Part shown: positions 50,293 to 58,412 of the stretch, one piece after another | Layout: every line of letters begins with the position of its first letter | Numbering within the stretch: the stretch's first letter is position 1 | Assembly: GCA_013042915.1 (NCBI GenBank) | Contig: JABDPF010000082.1 | Location: 1-61,846, forward strand | DNA: 61,846 nucleotides | Reading direction: 5' to 3' | Source: Lysobacterales bacterium | Lineage (GTDB): Bacteria > Pseudomonadota > Gammaproteobacteria > Xanthomonadales > SZUA-36 | Program-made: the position numbers and the translations under genes | The notes under the pieces: generated by a model | What the model saw: only the letters and a program-made list of their open reading frames with translations | The model's database searches: none | Told to the model about the DNA's origin: nothing

Positions 50293-50303
50293 ACGCATCC
50301 TCC

Positions 50304-50379
50304 GCGGGTGTAGCTCAGCTGGTAGAGCGGTACCTTGCCAAGGTACAGGTCGACGGTTCGAACCCGTTCACCCGCTCCA
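50304..50379 (+). tRNA. tRNA-Gly (anticodon GCC)
   Basis: A full cloverleaf: acceptor GCGGGTG pairs with CACCCGC, the D-arm carries AGCTGGTAGA, the anticodon stem GTACC/GGTAC encloses TTGCCAA (anticodon GCC), and the T-arm has GGTTCGAACC. TCCA is encoded at the 3' end. In many gammaproteobacteria this tRNA is followed at once by tRNA-Cys and tRNA-Leu; here those lie 9.7 kb away. Confidence 0.96.
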
Positions 50380-50386
50380 GACATGA

Positions 50387-50423
50387 AAGCCTGGTCGCCG
50401 TCTTGGCGCTCCAGGCTTTTTTT
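50387..50423 (+). terminator. Intrinsic terminator after tRNA-Gly
   Basis: AAGCCTGG and CCAGGCTT form an 8-pair stem with an inner GCC/GGC helix in the loop, followed by seven T residues. It ends tRNA-Gly transcription right at the edge of the downstream island and may also cap the convergent DAGK-like gene. Confidence 0.8.
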
Positions 50424-50433
50424 CTGCTTCAAG

Positions 50434-51348
50434 TCAACGCAGCCAGTCCAGGTGGAGCACGGTCAGCCCACGCGGCACAATATCCAGGTCGAAGCGACGG
50501 TGGGTCAGGATAATCTCTCCGTCACCAAAGAACGGCATGGACTCAGCCGTTTTAATGCGGGCGGATACGGCCCTGAGAACATGGCAGTCTCGCTCTCGTT
50601 GGACCGCAGCCGTGGCGATGTGGCCCGTGATCATCAGGTCTCGCAGCCGACTTCCGGTATTCAACACACAGATTTCGAAATGACCATCGTCATTGATTGC
50701 TTCCCTGACCACGGTTAATGAACCGGCGAAGGTCGCTTGATTGCTAACAAACAGGGCTTTGGTCTGCAATCGCAAATTCCTGGTCTTGCTGGAATCGACA
50801 TCCTCCCACTCAATTTCCACCCATTGGTTGCGAGCGCCTCCCCAAAGCACCTGGTTTGCAGCGATAAGGGGATAGATGTATCGACCCATTTTTCGACTCA
50901 ACCACTCACATCGATTCTGCCTTAACCGGTTGACCTCCCGGGCAACCGTGCTGGGGATACCCAGTCCTCCCGTGGTGCAGAAAGACTGGCCATTGACGCC
51001 AATTCGATCGATGCGCAGGGCCAGGCCCGATGGCTTACCCAGGCTTCGATGCAGGTCGTTGGCTGTACCCAGTGGAAAAACAGCGAGGAGGTCGCCTTCA
51101 TTCATGGCCCGAACGCATAGATTGATCGTCCCATCCCCACCGGCAGCGACTACCAGGTCGGGCTGAGACGCCTCCAACGCGCTCTTCACAGAGCCCGGTG
51201 TGCCGGCTTCTATCTCGGCGGTGATGCTTACGTGGCGGGTAAGCGACTCACGGATTTCCGGCCAATGGTCTGCGTGAAGGCGCCGCGTGGCGGGCGTGTA
51301 CACCACCACGGCCCGACCTCCGTGAACGCAAGCAGCAAACGCGTTCAT
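50434..51348 (-). CDS. Diacylglycerol-kinase-like lipid kinase
   Basis: The 304-residue protein has the DAGK catalytic fold of the YegS/BmrU/sphingosine-kinase type: VVAAGGDGTINLC (nucleotide loop), PLGTANDLHR, and later FVSNQATFAGSL and DDGHFEICVLN. It probably phosphorylates the free hydroxyl of a lipid with ATP. The ATG overlaps the stop of the CarS-like gene by 4 bases (ATGA), making it the last gene of the lipid operon. Typical GC content here is lower than in the flanking housekeeping genes. The actual lipid substrate cannot be read from sequence. Confidence 0.82.
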   Translation of the reverse strand: MNAFAACVHGGRAVVVYTPATRRLHADHWPEIRESLTRHVSITAEIEAGTPGSVKSALEASQPDLVVAAGGDGTINLCVRAMNEGDLLAVFPLGTANDLHRSLGKPSGLALRIDRIGVNGQSFCTTGGLGIPSTVAREVNRLRQNRCEWLSRKMGRYIYPLIAANQVLWGGARNQWVEIEWEDVDSSKTRNLRLQTKALFVSNQATFAGSLTVVREAINDDGHFEICVLNTGSRLRDLMITGHIATAAVQRERDCHVLRAVSARIKTAESMPFFGDGEIILTHRRFDLDIVPRGLTVLHLDWLR

Positions 51349-51923
51349 CCGACCCTCTGTTTCAATTTGAGTGCAACCATCAAGGTTGCGACAGTCGGGT
51401 GCAGAATAAGCGTGAACGCGATCACCAAGAGGTATACCTCAGGATTGGGGCGCCTAACGAAACTGAGCGCAATGAGAACAGCGACAACGCTGTCGACCTG
51501 ATCCACAAACCAAAACAACTTTTGCAGCTGCCCGTTGGCGACTGACCCCGGAGGGATGTTCAACTGCCTCTTGATCAATGAGTTTGGAAGCTCCCCAACG
51601 ATGTAGGCACTTCCGAACAGAAAACCCAGGCTGGCAGAGCCCAGTTGTTCCATTGGGATGTAACGAAGGTCAGCGTCAAGGTTCAGAGTTGTTTGAACAT
51701 GGTCCAATACGATGGTCCAGACAATCGTCGCGCATATCATTACAACAGCGCCACGAACCGTCTTGTTTGCGCCGAATAGGTCCCGGCCACGCAGTTTCAT
51801 TCCACAATCGAGCCGCAATCGGGCCAGCGAAGGAAGTGCATCCGCTTTGATCATTGCGACATGGGTGATGCCACCGAGGGTCAGGGGCAAGCAAAGCCAG
51901 ATACTTTGCTGCAGGGTGTTCAC
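51345..51923 (-). CDS. CDP-archaeol synthase (CarS) family cytidylyltransferase
   Basis: The 192-residue, multi-helix membrane protein matches the CarS family of CTP:lipid-phosphate cytidylyltransferases, best known from archaea. RLRLDCGMKLRGRDLFGANKTVRG (residues about 36-58) equals the L-D-x-G ... G-x-x-KT-x-RG motif. GELPNSLIKRQLNIPPGS (110-127) equals the archaeal G-D-L-x-x-S-F-I-K-R-R-L motif with Glu for Asp, and FVDQVDSVVA equals the DQ-D segment. It would make a CDP-activated lipid. GTG start with GGAG 6 bases upstream; the 114 bases to the UbiA-like stop hold no gene. Confidence 0.78.
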   Translation of the reverse strand: MNTLQQSIWLCLPLTLGGITHVAMIKADALPSLARLRLDCGMKLRGRDLFGANKTVRGAVVMICATIVWTIVLDHVQTTLNLDADLRYIPMEQLGSASLGFLFGSAYIVGELPNSLIKRQLNIPPGSVANGQLQKLFWFVDQVDSVVAVLIALSFVRRPNPEVYLLVIAFTLILHPTVATLMVALKLKQRVG

Positions 51924-52037
51924 GTTGCTCTCCAACCCAACTCGATGGGAAAACAGGTCGCACTGGTGCGCATTTTTCCACTGTAGCCAACGGTTGGATT
52001 GGCGTGGGTGTCGCGACGACAGGCGCAAGCACGGAGA

Positions 52038-52775
52038 TCATCCATTTCGAGCACCCTGGAAAACGAGGGCGGAAAAAACGAAAAAAGCCGGGGCAAGGGC
52101 AGGCAACCTCCGGGTATACGCCAGAAGACTCAGCGCGGTTGTCGCCGACCAGGCGACCATCCACAACCACCATGAGCCGTTCACGGACATAACGGTAACA
52201 AGTCCGACACAAACGAAATAGCAAATCAAAATGAGCATTGAACCCGGTTTTTCGCGCAGTGATTCATCCTGGATCCGCTCATAAATACCGAAGCACAAGT
52301 AGACCAGCAGCGGTGCGGCCCAGTGCTCAGCGCCAATGGCCACAACGATGATTGGATATTTGAGCAAGACCCAGTACTCCCGATAACCCAAACCGAAGCG
52401 GTACAGCCCGTCGAAGCAGACCGCCAACGCAAGCACAAGGGCCGGCCCGAGCCAACCTGTAAGCACCAGGAGTAAAAGCGAGCCGACCGTGAGCAGGCCC
52501 AGTGCGGTGAACCAGAATGGCCGAAGGTCGGAGACCCCCACGAGCACCCGGTAAGGTGTCCTGACGGCGTCCCGCGGCAGATCGTAGATGTCGTCCTGGA
52601 TGCGAAAGGCAGCCACCAGGCACCAGGCGGCAAGCACCTGCACCGCGAACATCAATGGCGAACTTTCTTGAGGAACGGTGCTCGCATCAGTGGCTGCCAG
52701 CCCCAAATAGACCGACAGCAGCCCAAAAAGGAGTATGGGCATTCGCTCGCGGTGCCAGGCAAGTACCGCTTTCAT
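52038..52775 (-). CDS. UbiA-like membrane prenyltransferase
   Basis: A 245-residue protein with about eight membrane segments. Residues 60-69 read QDDIYDLPRD, followed by VRTPYRVLVG, which matches the first Asp-rich motif of UbiA enzymes (N-D-x-x-D-x-x-x-D then P-x-R). The second motif, near 165-171 (YERIQDE), is less typical. UbiA proteins transfer prenyl chains to aromatic rings, heme, or glyceryl-prenyl phosphates; the CarS-like neighbour favours a lipid acceptor. The ATG overlaps the dikinase stop by 4 bases. It is shorter than common UbiA proteins (about 290). Confidence 0.68.
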   Translation of the reverse strand: MKAVLAWHRERMPILLFGLLSVYLGLAATDASTVPQESSPLMFAVQVLAAWCLVAAFRIQDDIYDLPRDAVRTPYRVLVGVSDLRPFWFTALGLLTVGSLLLLVLTGWLGPALVLALAVCFDGLYRFGLGYREYWVLLKYPIIVVAIGAEHWAAPLLVYLCFGIYERIQDESLREKPGSMLILICYFVCVGLVTVMSVNGSWWLWMVAWSATTALSLLAYTRRLPALAPAFFVFSALVFQGARNG

Positions 52776-55342
52776 TTGACGGTACCTTCACGATAGACCC
52801 GGCCCTGGTCCCCATCAACCAGCAGCAAGTCTCCTGTTTTTAACAGATCCGCCGCGTGCGGCACGGCGATGACGGCTGGAATCCCGAACTCCCTTGCCAC
52901 AATGGCACCGTGAGAAAGCATTCCTCCTCGTTCCATGATCAGGCCGCTTGCCAGAAAGAACAGCGACGCCCAGCCGGGGTCCGTCTGACGGGCGACCAAT
53001 ATCTCACCCTTTTGAAACTGCGCCGACTCGCCCAGCCCGGCCATGACTCGGGCACGGGCTCGAATTCTGCCACCCGAAACACCGACTCCTCGGAGTTCAC
53101 CTACCGCCTGCTGAACGACCGGAGTTTGCGTATCCGACTTGAGATATTCCCCCGGTGGAAGCTGGATGGTGTCGGGCACCGCCCGGGCCGACTGGGCCAG
53201 GTGTTCTCGACGACGCAGCGCTACGAGTCCCGGTATGGTGGCGGGAAGCATGTAGTTGCCGCTCAGCCAGGCATCAATCTCTGACCATTCGAGGAAAAAC
53301 AGGTCGTCCGGCCGGTTGAGTCGTCCTTGCCGGACAAGACCCCGGCCCATGGACAGCAAGACCCCTCGAAATCTTCGATAAATCAGGGCCTGCATCAGCC
53401 TTACCCGCTCTCGATAGCAGATGCTGCGCTGAGCAGTCAGCAACGCCAGTCTCAGCTGGAGAGCCCGACACCGGCCCAGTCTTTTGCAAAGATCAGCCAT
53501 TGCGGTATCCCTGCGCTCGGCCTGAAGGCCTGTCGATGCCTCTGGCGATGGCCCGTCAATATCGATGAAGCCCGCGACGACGGGCAGCAGGGTTGCGGGC
53601 TCTTCCTGGTAACAGGGAATGTGAAGCATCAGTTCGCCCGAGACACGAAAGCCCCAATGCTCGATGTGACGGATGAAATCCTCATGGAATTCAGGAAAAG
53701 CCCCATTGCACAGCGCCGAGTAAAGCGTGTCCCAGTCTTTGGCACTGGCGGCCGCGCGGAGCTCATGGCACAACACAGGATTGTCACGGGCGGTACGCGA
53801 CAACTCCCAGAGAGAGTTCACGGCGCCCGCGCTGACCACGTTGGGAATGGCCAAAAGAAGGTTAGGGGGAAGCGTCTGTGCCGCCTCGGCGCCCAGGCGA
53901 TGGTGCAGGAAAGACTTGAGCGCAGCATAACTCAGGGCGGCCGCCACGTCGGCCAGCGAGGCGTCAGTCCAACCCCGGAACCGAATGTCGATAAAGCGGC
54001 GATAGAGTCCCAGGAGTTCCAGTGGTGTCGAGTCCATCAACGCTTTGGCCCCGGCGTCGCATGAATAAGCGCGTGCCCGGGCCTCGAAGCGCTCCACGCG
54101 CCAGGGCAAGGTGGAAAGCGACCGAGCGGCCGACAGTACGGCCCAGGTCAATTGCAACTGCGAGGCCGCTCGCGCGGTTGCATCGACCCGGGTTTTTTTC
54201 CCGGTTCTACCCTCGTCGTCCACGCCCACGAAGTTGTCGAAAGCAGCGGAAAGGTAGGCCCCGAATGGAGCAGCATTGATGCAATGATGAATGCTGCTCA
54301 GGTTGTAATAGAGTCTGGCGCCGTGAACACCCACGCTGTATCGAAGCCAGGACCGCAGGTCATCCAGCGCGGCTTCGGAAAATCCGAATGCTCGTCCAAT
54401 ATTGGAAAAGTAGTTCTCGTAGGCCTCCCGAGCGATGGAGTACAGCAACGGACTGACGGGCTCAGGGTAGTTTTCGTTGATGTTTACGTTAGACCAGACC
54501 ACGGACTGGCGGGCTTTTGGGGATACCGTGATGGGACGGCACTGCACGAACCAGAGTGTTTCGGAACGGTCGATCAGCCACTCGATGTCCTGCGGTGCTC
54601 CGTAGGACTGTTCAAGCGCAAGGGCCTGCGCAGCCAGTTGGCCAAACCGCTCATGATCTGGAGCATTGCGGGGCAGTACAACGCTTTGTGGGGTCTGGGT
54701 ACCATTGACCAGGGTTTCCGGATGACCTTCAACATACTCAATGCGCAATGTTTCCGTATCATCCGGCGCACGGGTGAACAGCACACCCCCCTGGAGGGGC
54801 TCGATCATGGTTTGAATGATCACCCCCATGGAACGCAATGGCACTTCCTGACTGATTCGGTAAACCAGGGCGCGCTCAGACCAATAGGAAGCCCAACACC
54901 GCAACACCGCTGCCTGCATGGCATCGAACGAATTCACGTTGAGCACTGAATCCAACTGGCCCGCAAAAGATGCCGTTCCCGAGTCTTCCCCTACGGCAGA
55001 GCTTCGTACGATCCAAAAACCAGTTTGGTTCGCCCACCACTCGGCGAGTATCTCGAGGATTTCAGGGGGCAAACTGCACGACATCAACCGATCCCGGATC
55101 TGGGCTGATCGTTGCGTGAATCGTGGCCGGTCAGCGAGGTCGAGGCCCGGTTCAATCTCGAGCGCACCCAGGTCATTGCCACGTATAAAAAGATCGAAGG
55201 ATTGACACGTGAGCACCATGCCGGGGGGTACAGCGACGCCAAGAGACGCCATTTTCGCCAGGCTCCACGCTTTACCACCAGCCTCTTTCGCCGACTTCAA
55301 AGACGAGACTGGTCGAAATAAAGACGTTGACTCAAAAGTCAT
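52772..55342 (-). CDS. Rifampicin-phosphotransferase-like dikinase (PPDK N-terminal and PEP-utiliser domains)
   Basis: The 856-residue product begins with a PPDK/PEP-synthase ATP-grasp domain (residues about 15-330; GGKAWSLAKMASLG, VRSSAVGEDSGTASFAGQLDS, ECR-like FVQCRPITV), has a long helical middle of unknown fold, and ends with the swivelling phosphohistidine domain, His811 in GGMLSHGAIVARE. There is no PEP-binding TIM barrel, so it resembles RPH dikinases that use ATP to phosphorylate a hydroxyl and release AMP and phosphate. It leads the minus-strand lipid operon (GGAG site before the ATG). The acceptor is unknown; a lipid alcohol is the simplest guess. Confidence 0.8.
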   Translation of the reverse strand: MTFESTSLFRPVSSLKSAKEAGGKAWSLAKMASLGVAVPPGMVLTCQSFDLFIRGNDLGALEIEPGLDLADRPRFTQRSAQIRDRLMSCSLPPEILEILAEWWANQTGFWIVRSSAVGEDSGTASFAGQLDSVLNVNSFDAMQAAVLRCWASYWSERALVYRISQEVPLRSMGVIIQTMIEPLQGGVLFTRAPDDTETLRIEYVEGHPETLVNGTQTPQSVVLPRNAPDHERFGQLAAQALALEQSYGAPQDIEWLIDRSETLWFVQCRPITVSPKARQSVVWSNVNINENYPEPVSPLLYSIAREAYENYFSNIGRAFGFSEAALDDLRSWLRYSVGVHGARLYYNLSSIHHCINAAPFGAYLSAAFDNFVGVDDEGRTGKKTRVDATARAASQLQLTWAVLSAARSLSTLPWRVERFEARARAYSCDAGAKALMDSTPLELLGLYRRFIDIRFRGWTDASLADVAAALSYAALKSFLHHRLGAEAAQTLPPNLLLAIPNVVSAGAVNSLWELSRTARDNPVLCHELRAAASAKDWDTLYSALCNGAFPEFHEDFIRHIEHWGFRVSGELMLHIPCYQEEPATLLPVVAGFIDIDGPSPEASTGLQAERRDTAMADLCKRLGRCRALQLRLALLTAQRSICYRERVRLMQALIYRRFRGVLLSMGRGLVRQGRLNRPDDLFFLEWSEIDAWLSGNYMLPATIPGLVALRRREHLAQSARAVPDTIQLPPGEYLKSDTQTPVVQQAVGELRGVGVSGGRIRARARVMAGLGESAQFQKGEILVARQTDPGWASLFFLASGLIMERGGMLSHGAIVAREFGIPAVIAVPHAADLLKTGDLLLVDGDQGRVYREGTVK

Positions 55343-55871
55343 TGGAGACTCCGGTCTAGCCTACCTCGGGCTCATGGAGAAACCGTTCTTCGGAGAGTTT
55401 CTTCTGCCCGGATTTTGTGCTGATGACAGAATATTACAGTATGACGTTGGACCTAGCTGCCAAGCTGTATGGATCGGTGAAACGCACAAATGATTGAACC
55501 ACCATCGTGCACCTCCTGGATATTCAGTGAGTACCATCGACAGGCTTGTCGGGGTGCTACCGATTCAAGAGGTTATCGATAATTTCGCGAACTCAGATGG
55601 ATAATCTCAAAGAGAGATAGCTTTTCATCATTATCAAACATTTGTGTCGCCTCAAATGACTCAAATCAAGCAATAGCGAAAATATTGGCGGCGAATGCGT
55701 CTGTATATCCCATACCGTTCTCATGCTATTTTTTACAACTGGAAACAAATGACGGAAGGCCACCGCAAATAAAACTCATCCAATATCGCGAGTAAAGACT
55801 CGGCCAACTTGATTGAACGGTCCTTTGCGCATTTGACCTGGAACTCATAACCCCCTGGGGCTCATCGAAAG
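55343..55871. other. 529-base AT-rich divergent intergenic region
   Basis: This is the longest gene-free stretch in the window. It separates the dikinase operon (minus) from the CDP-alcohol phosphatidyltransferase (plus). Base content drops sharply: 55621-55680 is about 35% GC by count, against roughly 63% in a sampled core line. Short open frames exist but lack ribosome sites and family resemblance. No tRNA fragment, repeat or clear operator was found. It should hold both promoters, but I could not pick convincing -35/-10 pairs. Confidence 0.6.
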
Positions 55872-56600
55872 ATGACAGAAGAAAATTCAAACGAACCCGC
55901 TTCACGGATGAAACACGACGAAACCCGTCTTCGAGACCGTGGCGCGCTGGCCCGTTTTGACGCACAGCCTCGCGGGCAAAGCATGTTGTGGTTTGTCAGG
56001 GATTTACCAAATGCGATAACCCTGGCAGGCCTGGTTCTTTCCTTACTGGCAATATTTTGGGCGGTCACCGGGATGTACGCTGCCGCAATGGTTGCGTTGC
56101 TCTGGGCCTCTCTCTTTGATTGGTTCGATGGGCCGGTCGCAAAAAGGATGGCAAACCGACCCGAGGAATCACATGCATTTGGTGTACAGCTGGATTCGTT
56201 CTCAGACCTGGTAAGCAGTAGTGTTGCTCCCGCGATAATTTTGCTGGGTATTGGCGAGTGGAGCGCATGGTATTTACCCGGCGCAATCTTGATCGTGATG
56301 GCAGGTGTTATCCGCTTGAGCTTTTTCAATGTATACGGATTATCAAGCGATCAGAGTTACCAAGGCCTGCCTGTACCAGCGAATACCATTCTGCTTACCA
56401 GTGTATTTCTAGTTTATGGCCTCGTGGACATGCGCTTGTTTCAAACGCTGCTGTATGCATCAATGCTGTTGATGGCCACTTTGAACGTGGCTCATTTCCG
56501 CTTCCCGAAGCCGAGAGGAGGCTGGTACGCAGCGATCGTGGTTTACACCTTGGTATTGACCCTGTTTTATGCGTGGCGAATGCCCCTGGCTTCGCAGTAA
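55872..56600 (+). CDS. CDP-alcohol phosphatidyltransferase, class II PS/archaetidylserine-synthase type
   Basis: A 242-residue membrane protein with the CDP-alcohol motif as D83-x2-D86-G87-x2-A90-K91-x12-G104-x3-D108-x3-D112. Lys replaces the usual Arg and the spacer is 12 rather than 8 residues. LDSFSDLVSSSVAPA and RLSFFN...GLPVPA are typical of the serine-transferring class II PssA/archaetidylserine synthase branch, so serine is the likely but unproven alcohol. It is divergent from the dikinase-UbiA-CarS-DAGK run and would use its CDP-lipid. About 50-57% GC in sampled lines. Confidence 0.8.
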   Translation: MTEENSNEPASRMKHDETRLRDRGALARFDAQPRGQSMLWFVRDLPNAITLAGLVLSLLAIFWAVTGMYAAAMVALLWASLFDWFDGPVAKRMANRPEESHAFGVQLDSFSDLVSSSVAPAIILLGIGEWSAWYLPGAILIVMAGVIRLSFFNVYGLSSDQSYQGLPVPANTILLTSVFLVYGLVDMRLFQTLLYASMLLMATLNVAHFRFPKPRGGWYAAIVVYTLVLTLFYAWRMPLASQ

Positions 56601-56666
56601 CGAATGGGATCCAGAGCTTAGCTGATGTTTGGGCTATTCAAGCCGTCGTTTGAGCGCATCGGTTAT

Positions 56667-58412
56667 TTATTGCGGTACCGTGGCCGCGGCGCCGCCCAGC
56701 GCGTCGAGCCGGTGAACATCGTCCTTGCGATCCAGGTACTCCCAGCGCTGCAGGGCGATCGGCACGTTCCCGTTTTCCATCAGGTAGTCGTGGAATGCCC
56801 GTAAGGAAAAGTCGCCGCCCTGGTCCAGCCGGGCATCAGCCAGGAAGCGGATGATCTGCAGCTTGCCAACCTGGTAGGTGATGGCCTGGCCCGGGTTGAA
56901 GGCGAAAAATACGGCTTCTTCCAGCGCGGTTTCGGAGTCCATCGGCACGGTGCGGGCCAGGTATTCGGCGGCTTCCGCGATGGAAAAATCGCCCACGGCT
57001 AGCTGGATGTCCACCTCGACTCGCAGGGCACGCAGCCGCGCATAGCTGTAGATAATTTCACGGGTCTTGGGGCTGAAATCGAACAGGCCGGCCTGCAGCA
57101 GCATTTCCTCAACGTAATACGCAATGCCCTCGTTGACGCTCGAATCGATGTAGCGGCGTCGGATCGGGTTGGGCTGGGCCCAGGACAGCGCCATCTGATA
57201 ATAGTGGCCGGGCACGCCTTCGTGGAGGATCAGCGGCCGCGGGTCCTTGGCGGCGGACAGCTGGAAGTAGGACAAGCCGGGGTCGGGTTCGACGATGTAC
57301 CGGCAGGCATCCTCGTCCAGGCGGGTTTCCGAGGTCAGGTCGTCGGCCACGCCCAAAAAGGAGATCGGCGCCAGGTGTGCTGGCATCGGGCAACTCCGGT
57401 AATGCCGCAGCCAGTCGGGCACGGTCATCAGGTCTCTTGATTCAAGGAAAGCCCGGATGGATTTTTCGTGCATGTCGGCGGCGGCAACCTGTTTTTCGAT
57501 GCTCTCGAACAGCGGCAGTTTGCCGACATCGCGGTTGCGGTTCTGCTCGAGCACGTCCCAGGCGACCGCCCGGCTCCACTCCTGGCGGCCCTGGGCCAGC
57601 AATTCAGCGGGCGTGTGCGGAACCAACGCTACCTGGGTCAGGAACCAGGTGTACGCCTCCGGGCCGATTGCAAAGCTCTCGCGCATACCCTCGCGTTCGG
57701 ACTGGAGCCAGCGGCGGTATCTTTCCAGGGCCTTGTTCGCCTTCGAAACCGAGCGATGCAGCCGCCTCTCGAGGTTAGGCGGCACCTGGGCTTCGAGTGC
57801 CCGCTCAACGGCATCGAGGCGCTCGTCGATGTCGGTCAGTACCGAGATCGTGGCATCAGCGAACGGGCCGACGGCTTCGTCGAGGTTTTTCCGAGCATGG
57901 CTCAACGTTTGCGGAATGCGCTCGAGGCGAAGGATGATGTTTTCCAAGCGCGCCTCGTCGACCGGGCTGGCAATCAATAACAGCTCGAACACGCTTCCTA
58001 GGGTCTGCTGCACGTAGAACAACGGGTTGCGATGGGGTGACCGCAGTATGTCCAGTTCCCAGTGGACGCGCTGGATGGCGGCCCGCAACAAGCGGGCGTC
58101 CACTTGCTGCCCAACCGGCCAATCTTCGACGCGCAGCGCATCGACTGACTGTATGAATTTCTGGTAGTCCGCACGGTAGGTTTCCAGCGCCTCGGGTGAC
58201 CAGTCCGGCGCCCAGCCATCGGGACGCTCGACCCGTGGAATATCGTCACCCGCGGCCGGCTGCTGCCCGCGTCGCCATGCAAAGAAAGAGCGGGAGAGCG
58301 TGGCGAGTCGGGTGTCCGTCGTAAAGGTGTGCTGAGTCGCTTGTGCCTGCGCAGGGGATGCGGACAGGCAGACAAGCAGGGTCAGCAGATACAGGGTGCA
58401 GGAGTTTTTCAC
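56667..58412 (-). CDS. DUF885 family putative secreted metallohydrolase
   Basis: The 581-residue protein has a signal peptide (cleavage near AQAQA) and then a helical DUF885 domain. LILHEGVPGHYYQ provides an HExxxGH-type zinc site, and SSVNEGIAYYVEEML supplies a downstream Glu. DUF885 proteins are related to thermolysin/M3-like peptidases, but their substrates are mostly unknown. It is convergent with the CDP-alcohol transferase and returns to the GC content of the core genome. Confidence 0.82.
   Translation of the reverse strand: MKNSCTLYLLTLLVCLSASPAQAQATQHTFTTDTRLATLSRSFFAWRRGQQPAAGDDIPRVERPDGWAPDWSPEALETYRADYQKFIQSVDALRVEDWPVGQQVDARLLRAAIQRVHWELDILRSPHRNPLFYVQQTLGSVFELLLIASPVDEARLENIILRLERIPQTLSHARKNLDEAVGPFADATISVLTDIDERLDAVERALEAQVPPNLERRLHRSVSKANKALERYRRWLQSEREGMRESFAIGPEAYTWFLTQVALVPHTPAELLAQGRQEWSRAVAWDVLEQNRNRDVGKLPLFESIEKQVAAADMHEKSIRAFLESRDLMTVPDWLRHYRSCPMPAHLAPISFLGVADDLTSETRLDEDACRYIVEPDPGLSYFQLSAAKDPRPLILHEGVPGHYYQMALSWAQPNPIRRRYIDSSVNEGIAYYVEEMLLQAGLFDFSPKTREIIYSYARLRALRVEVDIQLAVGDFSIAEAAEYLARTVPMDSETALEEAVFFAFNPGQAITYQVGKLQIIRFLADARLDQGGDFSLRAFHDYLMENGNVPIALQRWEYLDRKDDVHRLDALGGAAATVPQ

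Follow-up and report, generated by a model that had tools for sequence, protein, structure and literature searches.

A block of five genes from a Lysobacterales bacterium (assembly GCA_013042915.1, contig JABDPF010000082.1; the whole 61,846-nucleotide stretch analysed is referred to below as the window) was acquired horizontally as one unit at a tRNA-Gly gene. Four of the genes form a minus-strand run and encode a dikinase with the architecture of rifampin phosphotransferase (RPH), a compact UbiA-like membrane protein, a CarS-like protein and a DAGK-type lipid kinase, while the fifth, a CDP-alcohol transferase of the phosphatidylserine synthase (PSS) type, is divergent (Table 1). Our preferred reading, for which we see the scales as evenly balanced, is that the block encodes a dedicated pathway whose product is a non-standard polar membrane lipid carrying a headgroup derived from serine. 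Since the site is empty in relatives and the gene set recurs elsewhere, the grouping of the five genes is more than chance.

Table 1. Coordinates of the acquired block and its features in the window
Feature	Position	Strand	Basis and remarks
tRNA-Gly(gcc), left boundary of the acquired block	50304-50379	+	Comparison with relatives
Acquired block, 6,287 bp, between tRNA-Gly and the DUF885 gene	50380-56666	.	25-261 bp in three relatives
DAGK/YegS-type lipid kinase	50434-51348	-	Pfam and NCBIfam; 4-bp overlap with CarS
CarS-like CTP:lipid-phosphate cytidylyltransferase (predicted)	51345-51923	-	Pfam; GTG start; stretches LFGANKTVRG, GELPNSLIKRQL, DQVDS
Compact UbiA-like integral membrane protein	52038-52775	-	Stretches FRIQDDIYDLPRD, KYP, YERIQD; family alignment, fold model
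RPH-architecture dikinase	52772-55342	-	ATP-grasp, middle domain, swinging His domain (His811)
Divergent intergenic region, 529 bp, GC 0.459	55343-55871	.	Putative promoter region
PSS-type CDP-alcohol transferase	55872-56600	+	Pfam, NCBIfam, MjPSS serine-site residues D108, S109, D112, F152

The corresponding site in relatives was reached through clpA, which was located in 20 relatives, and 12 regions of 3-16 kb were taken for comparison. The tRNA-Gly gene is present in 10 of these 12 regions. In three genomes of the same family (G005, G004 and G012) the distance from tRNA-Gly to the DUF885 gene is 68, 261 and 25 bp, respectively, and the 6,287-bp interval of the window contains exactly the five genes; in the compared stretch of the remaining seven tRNA-Gly-bearing regions DUF885 was unmatched. 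None of the island genes had a match across the 12 regions (tblastn, E ≤ 1e-4). A single-sequence query with the island CarS recovered its own genome only, one of 101, leaving 100 relatives unmatched; this absence is limited to close CarS proteins, since the same type of query, run across the phylum, gave one other weak match in 397 other genomes. The G+C content at third codon positions (GC3) is 0.56-0.68 across the five island genes and 0.78-0.82 in clpA, mnmA and DUF885, and the homocysteine methyltransferase gene, which lies outside the block, is likewise low (0.66). Given the empty site, the lack of island matches in relatives and the low GC3 of all five genes, the divergent transferase gene most likely arrived together with the four minus-strand genes. 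No direct repeat marks the block ends (50301-50520 and 56501-56800 have no word of 9-20 bases in common), no plasmid matched CarS (E ≤ 0.01) or the dikinase (E ≤ 1e-40, a strict limit), and no match was found among viral contigs.

Between the tRNA-Gly(gcc) of the window and the tRNA-Gly at this site in the three relatives, whose copies are identical to one another, 19 of 76 positions differ, and the flank just upstream of the window gene resembles that of G004. The arrival of the block may have replaced the tRNA-Gly gene.

A sequence-only reading of the window had already described four minus-strand genes and one divergent gene at this place, and inspection of the open reading frames (ORFs) found all five present and intact, without internal stops. 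Neighbouring genes overlap by 4 bp at two joints (DAGK/CarS and UbiA/dikinase), and the UbiA-CarS gap is 114 bp. The GTG start of the CarS-like gene sits behind GGAGAG; a longer ORF with a TTG start extends to 52028.

The sequence-only reading named recurrence of the gene set in other bacteria as a check, and the set does recur. PF01864 matched in 98 of the 369 genomes of the class, which is an upper bound for CarS, and many of the weaker matches are frames of 270-320 aa, which we take to be the size of CdsA. Besides the window's own locus, partner genes were found at two of 29 PF01864 loci examined over about 3 kb each, and the same two stood out among 14 longer stretches. The first, L035, has a pair of dikinases together with genes for a CDP-alcohol transferase, UbiA and an aminotransferase; in the second, L036, CarS and the transferase are fused, and UbiA, dikinase, AMP-binding ligase and formyltransferase-like genes stand with a fusion of HMG-CoA reductase and APH kinase. 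A CarS-only search with alignment A2 then yielded 74 named loci, of which 42 have a dikinase, 38 a UbiA-like gene, 38 both, 34 a CDP-alcohol transferase of any kind, 38 an HMG-CoA reductase (with the kinase domain confirmed by Pfam in three of these proteins) and 10 a CarS-transferase fusion. Of the loci that reach 18 kb, 40 in all, 29 contain the dikinase and 27 UbiA. The dikinase shares the strand of CarS in 41 of 42 loci, and the tested partners gave no match in 12 clpA control loci. The profiles used for counting were partly built from the counted loci; a first pass with rows from the window, L035, L036 and L043 only gave the same 42 dikinase loci, and without the seed contigs (L056, L078 and L111) the counts are 40 of 71 for the dikinase and 36 of 71 for UbiA. 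Note that the dikinase matches in L107 and L122 are weak and are probably other phosphoenolpyruvate (PEP)-utilizing proteins. In three of the 74 loci, one of them archaeal, CarS has a phosphatidylserine decarboxylase gene no more than two genes away: L086 (Jeotgalibaca caeni), L092 (a Woesearchaeota metagenome-assembled genome, MAG) and L093 (a Halobacteriovoraceae MAG). Named strains with related clusters include Massilia glaciei B448-2, Polaribacter filamentus ATCC 700397, Aestuariivivens insulae, Zooshikella harenae, Marinobacter sp. SS5-14b and Thalassolituus alkanivorans. We recognised no description of this gene set in the open-licence full-text literature, a search that left subscription papers mostly outside.

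Three further arrangements were observed around CarS. In many Gammaproteobacteria (L064, L066, L069, L073, L080 and others) there is a conserved run of UbiA, an HMG-CoA reductase fused to an APH/EcKL-type kinase, the dikinase, a weakly GNAT-like gene, an AMP-binding ligase, a CDP-alcohol transferase and CarS. An MMPL-type exporter gene adjoins CarS or lies within three genes of it in L058, L073, L082, L087 and L093 (checked by Pfam in L073), an arrangement compatible with the export of a lipid product. Finally, long class III aminotransferases lie near CarS and a CDP-alcohol transferase in L035/L111 and L084, with two RPH/PigC-type dikinases between them in L035/L111; the L084 aminotransferase matches PigE at 313 bits (cut-off 850) and has a C-terminal NAD-binding-like domain.

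The loci whose dikinases group with that of the window share its compact UbiA. A profile of eight compact rows (A6), run over the collected loci, matched at E < 1e-20 in nine named loci and the window, always directly downstream of the dikinase, and two of the nine (L060 and L101) are independent of the profile. This sub-type comprises the window, Planctomycetes, Flavobacteriaceae, a Bdellovibrionales MAG and Massilia glaciei; a search of the 369 genomes of the class added to the window's own genome a weak match in G132 (E 1.4e-4), located inside the CarS/dikinase locus of that genome. The flavobacterial and Massilia loci have a PlsC-type acyltransferase, an HMG-CoA reductase, a methyltransferase and a desaturase as neighbours (the methyltransferase and desaturase of Massilia assigned by eye, the other neighbours by clustering and Pfam), and the Planctomycetes loci a desaturase and a methyltransferase. 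The dikinases agree with this grouping: that of the window is 37-38% identical to two from Planctomycetes, 34-35% to those of flavobacteria and Bdellovibrionales and 23-29% to the rest of alignment A7. In the dikinase tree the window, Massilia glaciei and Planctomycetes group at 92/91 (not starred), and together with five Flavobacteriaceae rows and one Bdellovibrionales row at 100/99 (starred).

The dikinase itself combines an ATP-grasp domain, a middle domain and a C-terminal swinging His domain, as in RPH, which consumes ATP and releases AMP and Pi. It scores 186 bits for PPDK_N (cut-off 27) and 84.3 for PEP-utilizers (cut-off 23.1), and no PEP/pyruvate barrel was matched. R113, E119, E254, R269 and His811, presumably catalytic, are invariant across the 21 rows of A7. 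Its structural model (mean predicted local distance difference test, pLDDT, 84.6) has rifampin phosphotransferase as its best whole-length match in the PDB (E 2.7e-39, template-modelling (TM) score 0.49, 22% identity), and the PEP synthase match covers it partially only. No curated model claims the protein: it falls short for RPH (266.7 bits, cut-off 999) and for PEP synthase TIGR01418 (222.8 bits, cut-off 739.75). It also matches the prodigiosin-ligase models RedH (300 bits) and PigC (275 bits), and this, with the class III aminotransferases of L035/L111 and L084, would suit a pathway to a phosphorylated small molecule, i.e. a natural product made in the manner of the prodigiosin ligases, in which the CDP step would serve for tailoring. 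However, the scores lie far below the RedH, PigC and PigE cut-offs (1350, 1300 and 850), four of the five window proteins are of membrane-lipid enzyme families, and the block holds no polyketide synthase or nonribosomal peptide synthetase genes, so that a natural product pathway is very unlikely.

Another PDB match of the dikinase is HpeI of Rhodococcus, which we take to act in alkylphenol phosphorylation. Together with the RPH architecture, which suits a hydrophobic hydroxyl acceptor, and with the HMG-CoA-reductase-type clusters of Marinobacter, Oleispira, Thalassolituus and HdN1, all users of hydrocarbons or phytol, this match speaks for a salvage route for fatty or isoprenoid alcohols, in which the dikinase would phosphorylate a scavenged phytol- or geranylgeraniol-like alcohol, the UbiA-like protein would load the chain on an acceptor, and the remaining enzymes would add the headgroup. 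We regard salvage as unlikely, given that UbiA enzymes require diphosphates, that a second kinase for that step was not identified and that DAGK and PSS suit headgroup chemistry better.

Profile searches upheld the family assignments of the sequence-only reading for the dikinase (PPDK_N), CarS-like protein, DAGK and CDP-alcohol transferase, all of which exceed their Pfam cut-offs, and gave no Pfam hit for the protein called UbiA. Of its relatives, the UbiA protein of L036 exceeds the PF01040 cut-off and that of L035 lies just under it. The NCBIfam matches of the window protein are weak, the best by E-value (0.0016) being 18.1 bits on the DGGGP-synthase model PRK12872 (cut-off 278). The first Asp-rich motif is present, with R58, D61 and D69 invariant in a 24-row UbiA alignment; in the eight compact rows D61, D62, D69 and K139-Y-P are invariant, followed by an acidic stretch, and the window protein reads D61-x3-D65-x3-D69, KYP and YERIQD. 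For DGGGP synthases PMC9385802 gives three motifs, D-x3-D, Y-x5-K and a second Asp-rich motif, of which the window protein clearly has the first alone; the spacing of its KYP and acidic stretch differs from that of DGGGP synthases. The top Foldseek PDB matches of its AlphaFold2 model are nevertheless DGGGP synthases (E 0.04 and 0.07, probability 0.99, TM 0.41-0.49), and a structure comparison gave Z-scores of 11-12 for UBIAD1, ApUbiA and many isoprenyl synthases alike. Because the family alignment holds the first Asp-rich motif and the AlphaFold2 model has this Foldseek match, we assign the protein, with modest confidence, to the UbiA-like enzymes.

The CarS-like protein is, by profile score, a member of the CarS family and not the archaeal equivalog: it passes PF01864 (41.3 bits, cut-off 22) and fails the CDP-archaeol synthase equivalog PRK04032 (55.3 bits, cut-off 148). 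The CarS profile A2 aligned to ApCarS (5guf) only (E 0.0038), with the KR and DQxD stretches conserved. In the CarS tree, which is weaker than that of the dikinase, the window row stands beside two Steroidobacteraceae rows within an eight-row set (Shimodaira-Hasegawa-like approximate likelihood ratio 89) that includes the Massilia and Planctomycetes CarS. The DAGK passes both DAGK_cat PF00781 (47.3 bits, cut-off 23.6) and YegS_C (34.3 bits, cut-off 27) and has a GGDGT stretch, which we take to be the kinase motif.

The divergent transferase belongs to the CDP-OH_P_transf family (57.5 bits, cut-off 22) and keeps the motif DxxDGxxAR...GxxxDxxxD except for Arg, which is Lys91. Its top NCBIfam match is archaetidylserine synthase (101.8 bits, cut-off 240), and it scores 79.6 bits for PssA TIGR00473 (cut-off 107), where the housekeeping PssA of the genome scores 113.6; it therefore fails both models. 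According to PMC8633023, the serine ligands of MjPSS, a phosphatidylserine synthase of solved structure, are D62, S63, D66 and F105, and these correspond to D108, S109, D112 and F152 of the window protein, with the same residues in the genome's own PssA. Use of serine by the window transferase is accordingly the predicted pathway step best supported by residues.

Taken alone, DAGK, CarS and PSS would make a complete route from diacylglycerol to phosphatidylserine (DAGK to phosphatidate, CarS to CDP-diacylglycerol, PSS to phosphatidylserine), with its PSS site conserved and with the dikinase and UbiA genes unrelated to it. Such a plain second phosphatidylserine route is made less likely by the genome's own CdsA-type protein (CTP_transf_1, 178.8 bits) and PssA, which is above its curated cut-off. 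Moreover, the dikinase, UbiA and CarS genes are linked across phyla, and archaeal CarS is reported to prefer isoprenoid lipids over phosphatidic acid (PMC9385802). We consider it quite unlikely.

The genome also encodes a third CDP-alcohol transferase, at a contig end, which we take from its motif to be PgsA, and plsX, fabH and fabD were identified elsewhere in the window, as the sequence-only reading had noted. Its idea of a separate, dedicated locus for lipid headgroups in a cell that already has the usual phospholipid pathway is supported. Its archaeal order of steps is not supported. The absence of GGGP synthase and G1P dehydrogenase, first noted for the window, extends to the genome: the 96%-complete assembly has no match to GGGP synthase/PcrB (PF01884), and for G1P dehydrogenase, searched genome-wide by PF13685 only, the two matches are AroB and an ordinary iron alcohol dehydrogenase. 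With these searches we set aside an archaeal-type ether lipid (archaetidylserine) pathway, to which the CarS-like protein, the Foldseek match of the UbiA-like protein and the NCBIfam match of the transferase would all point, as highly improbable. The UbiA-like protein lies far below the DGGGP-synthase cut-off, and the ordinary PssA equals the island transferase on the archaetidylserine-synthase model (102.6 bits). The nearest kin of the dikinase and compact UbiA are bacterial, clustered with desaturase, PlsC-type acyltransferase, methyltransferase and HMG-CoA-reductase/kinase genes. The case is the converse of that of Ca. Cloacimonetes MAGs, which are reported to have archaeal-type lipid genes without CarS (PMC7852524).

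A stand-alone HMG-CoA reductase of 520 aa is encoded elsewhere in the genome (G000:C41:7871-9430, L164), unlinked to the island. It was considered as completing the pathway and rejected: its neighbourhood has no pathway genes, and it is matched in 12 of 40 relatives as well (one of them marginal). No cluster came from weak or partial matches in G014, G017 and G023.

In the pathway of our preferred reading, the dedicated serine-headgroup lipid, the first step is the least certain: the dikinase would phosphorylate a hydrophobic compound at its hydroxyl group at the expense of ATP, and a prenyl- or alkyl-type chain would be attached by the compact UbiA-like enzyme to give a lipid alcohol, the two acting in either order. 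DAGK, judging by its family, would then phosphorylate the finished lipid alcohol; CarS, judging by family and conserved motifs, would move CMP from CTP to form a CDP-lipid; and the PSS-type enzyme would exchange CMP for L-serine. The lipid backbone, including any prenyl nature, is what we infer from this scheme. In many related clusters an HMG-CoA-reductase/APH-type kinase fusion occupies the position that DAGK has here, and gene content suggests that a kinase feeding CarS may be a constant logic, with DAGK taking the place of the fusion.

Several observations weigh against this pathway. The UbiA-like protein matches no Pfam family at E ≤ 1, UbiA PF01040 included, its model has a modest pLDDT of 71.6, and isoprenyl synthases score as high as UbiA folds, so that the structure search does not tell the two apart. 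The fold matches of the dikinase to RPH have TM scores of 0.38-0.49 with a large root-mean-square deviation across the whole chain, and the window dikinase forms a long branch whose exact position in the tree is unsure. Fourteen of the 74 CarS loci, several of them on contigs shorter than 9 kb, are without any tested partner, and two of these 14 are the nearest kin of the window CarS. DAGK lies near CarS in none of the 74 other loci, and its role is therefore particular to the window. A CDP-alcohol transferase lies nearby in none of the nine sub-type loci (some on short contigs), which puts the PSS step outside the shared core of the sub-type. Lastly, 23 of 25 GRYLD-type transferases of related clusters have Gly at the position of the serine-contacting Ser63 of MjPSS, and headgroups would therefore differ between clusters.

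A broader and more tentative proposal, which we hold to be possible, is that of a multi-phylum class of bacterial membrane lipids in which the backbone would be made by a compact UbiA and an RPH-type dikinase acting on a lipid alcohol as its phosphate acceptor, and would be activated to the CDP form by a bacterial CarS, with the feeding kinase and the headgroup transferase exchangeable (DAGK and a serine transferase here, HMG-CoA reductase/kinase and a different transferase elsewhere).

Compared with known systems, the block shares with the archaeal phospholipid head-group pathway a CarS-family enzyme with KR and DQxD, a UbiA-like protein and a PSS-type transferase, but the genome has no GGGP synthase or G1P dehydrogenase match, the block adds DAGK and an RPH-type dikinase, and its UbiA-like protein is shortened and not a DGGGP synthase by the curated model. 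With the bacterial CdsA-PssA-Psd pathway it has in common the sequence of lipid phosphate, CDP-lipid and serine transferase, with serine-site residues retained; it has a CarS-type enzyme instead of CdsA, however, and that pathway has no place for the dikinase and UbiA-like genes. The dikinase resembles RPH in its ATP-grasp, large helical middle domain, C-terminal swinging His and whole-length fold match, and differs from it in its 22% identity in the best fold match, in falling under the model cut-off and in standing beside lipid-type genes. The clusters of Marinobacter, Thalassolituus, Zooshikella and HdN1 likewise hold dikinase, UbiA, CDP-alcohol transferase and CarS in one run, whereas the window lacks their HMG-CoA reductase/kinase, GNAT-like and AMP-ligase genes and has DAGK, a compact UbiA and the serine site. 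The nearest reported case of a UbiA-like enzyme in a conserved multi-phylum operon is the ebo cluster (PMC9235831), in which UbiA-297/EboC occurs with EboA, B, D and E; its partner genes are other ones, and the terms 'CDP' and 'PEP' are absent from the main text of that report.

If our reading is correct, a widespread bacterial lipid has been overlooked, one that would be made with a swinging-His dikinase, an enzyme type familiar from the inactivation of antibiotics and from central metabolism and not from membranes. CarS-type enzymes, which are taken as signs of archaeal lipids, could then serve a different, bacterial pathway, and this would bear on how archaeal lipid genes in bacterial genomes are read. 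The named strains with related clusters make the pathway testable.

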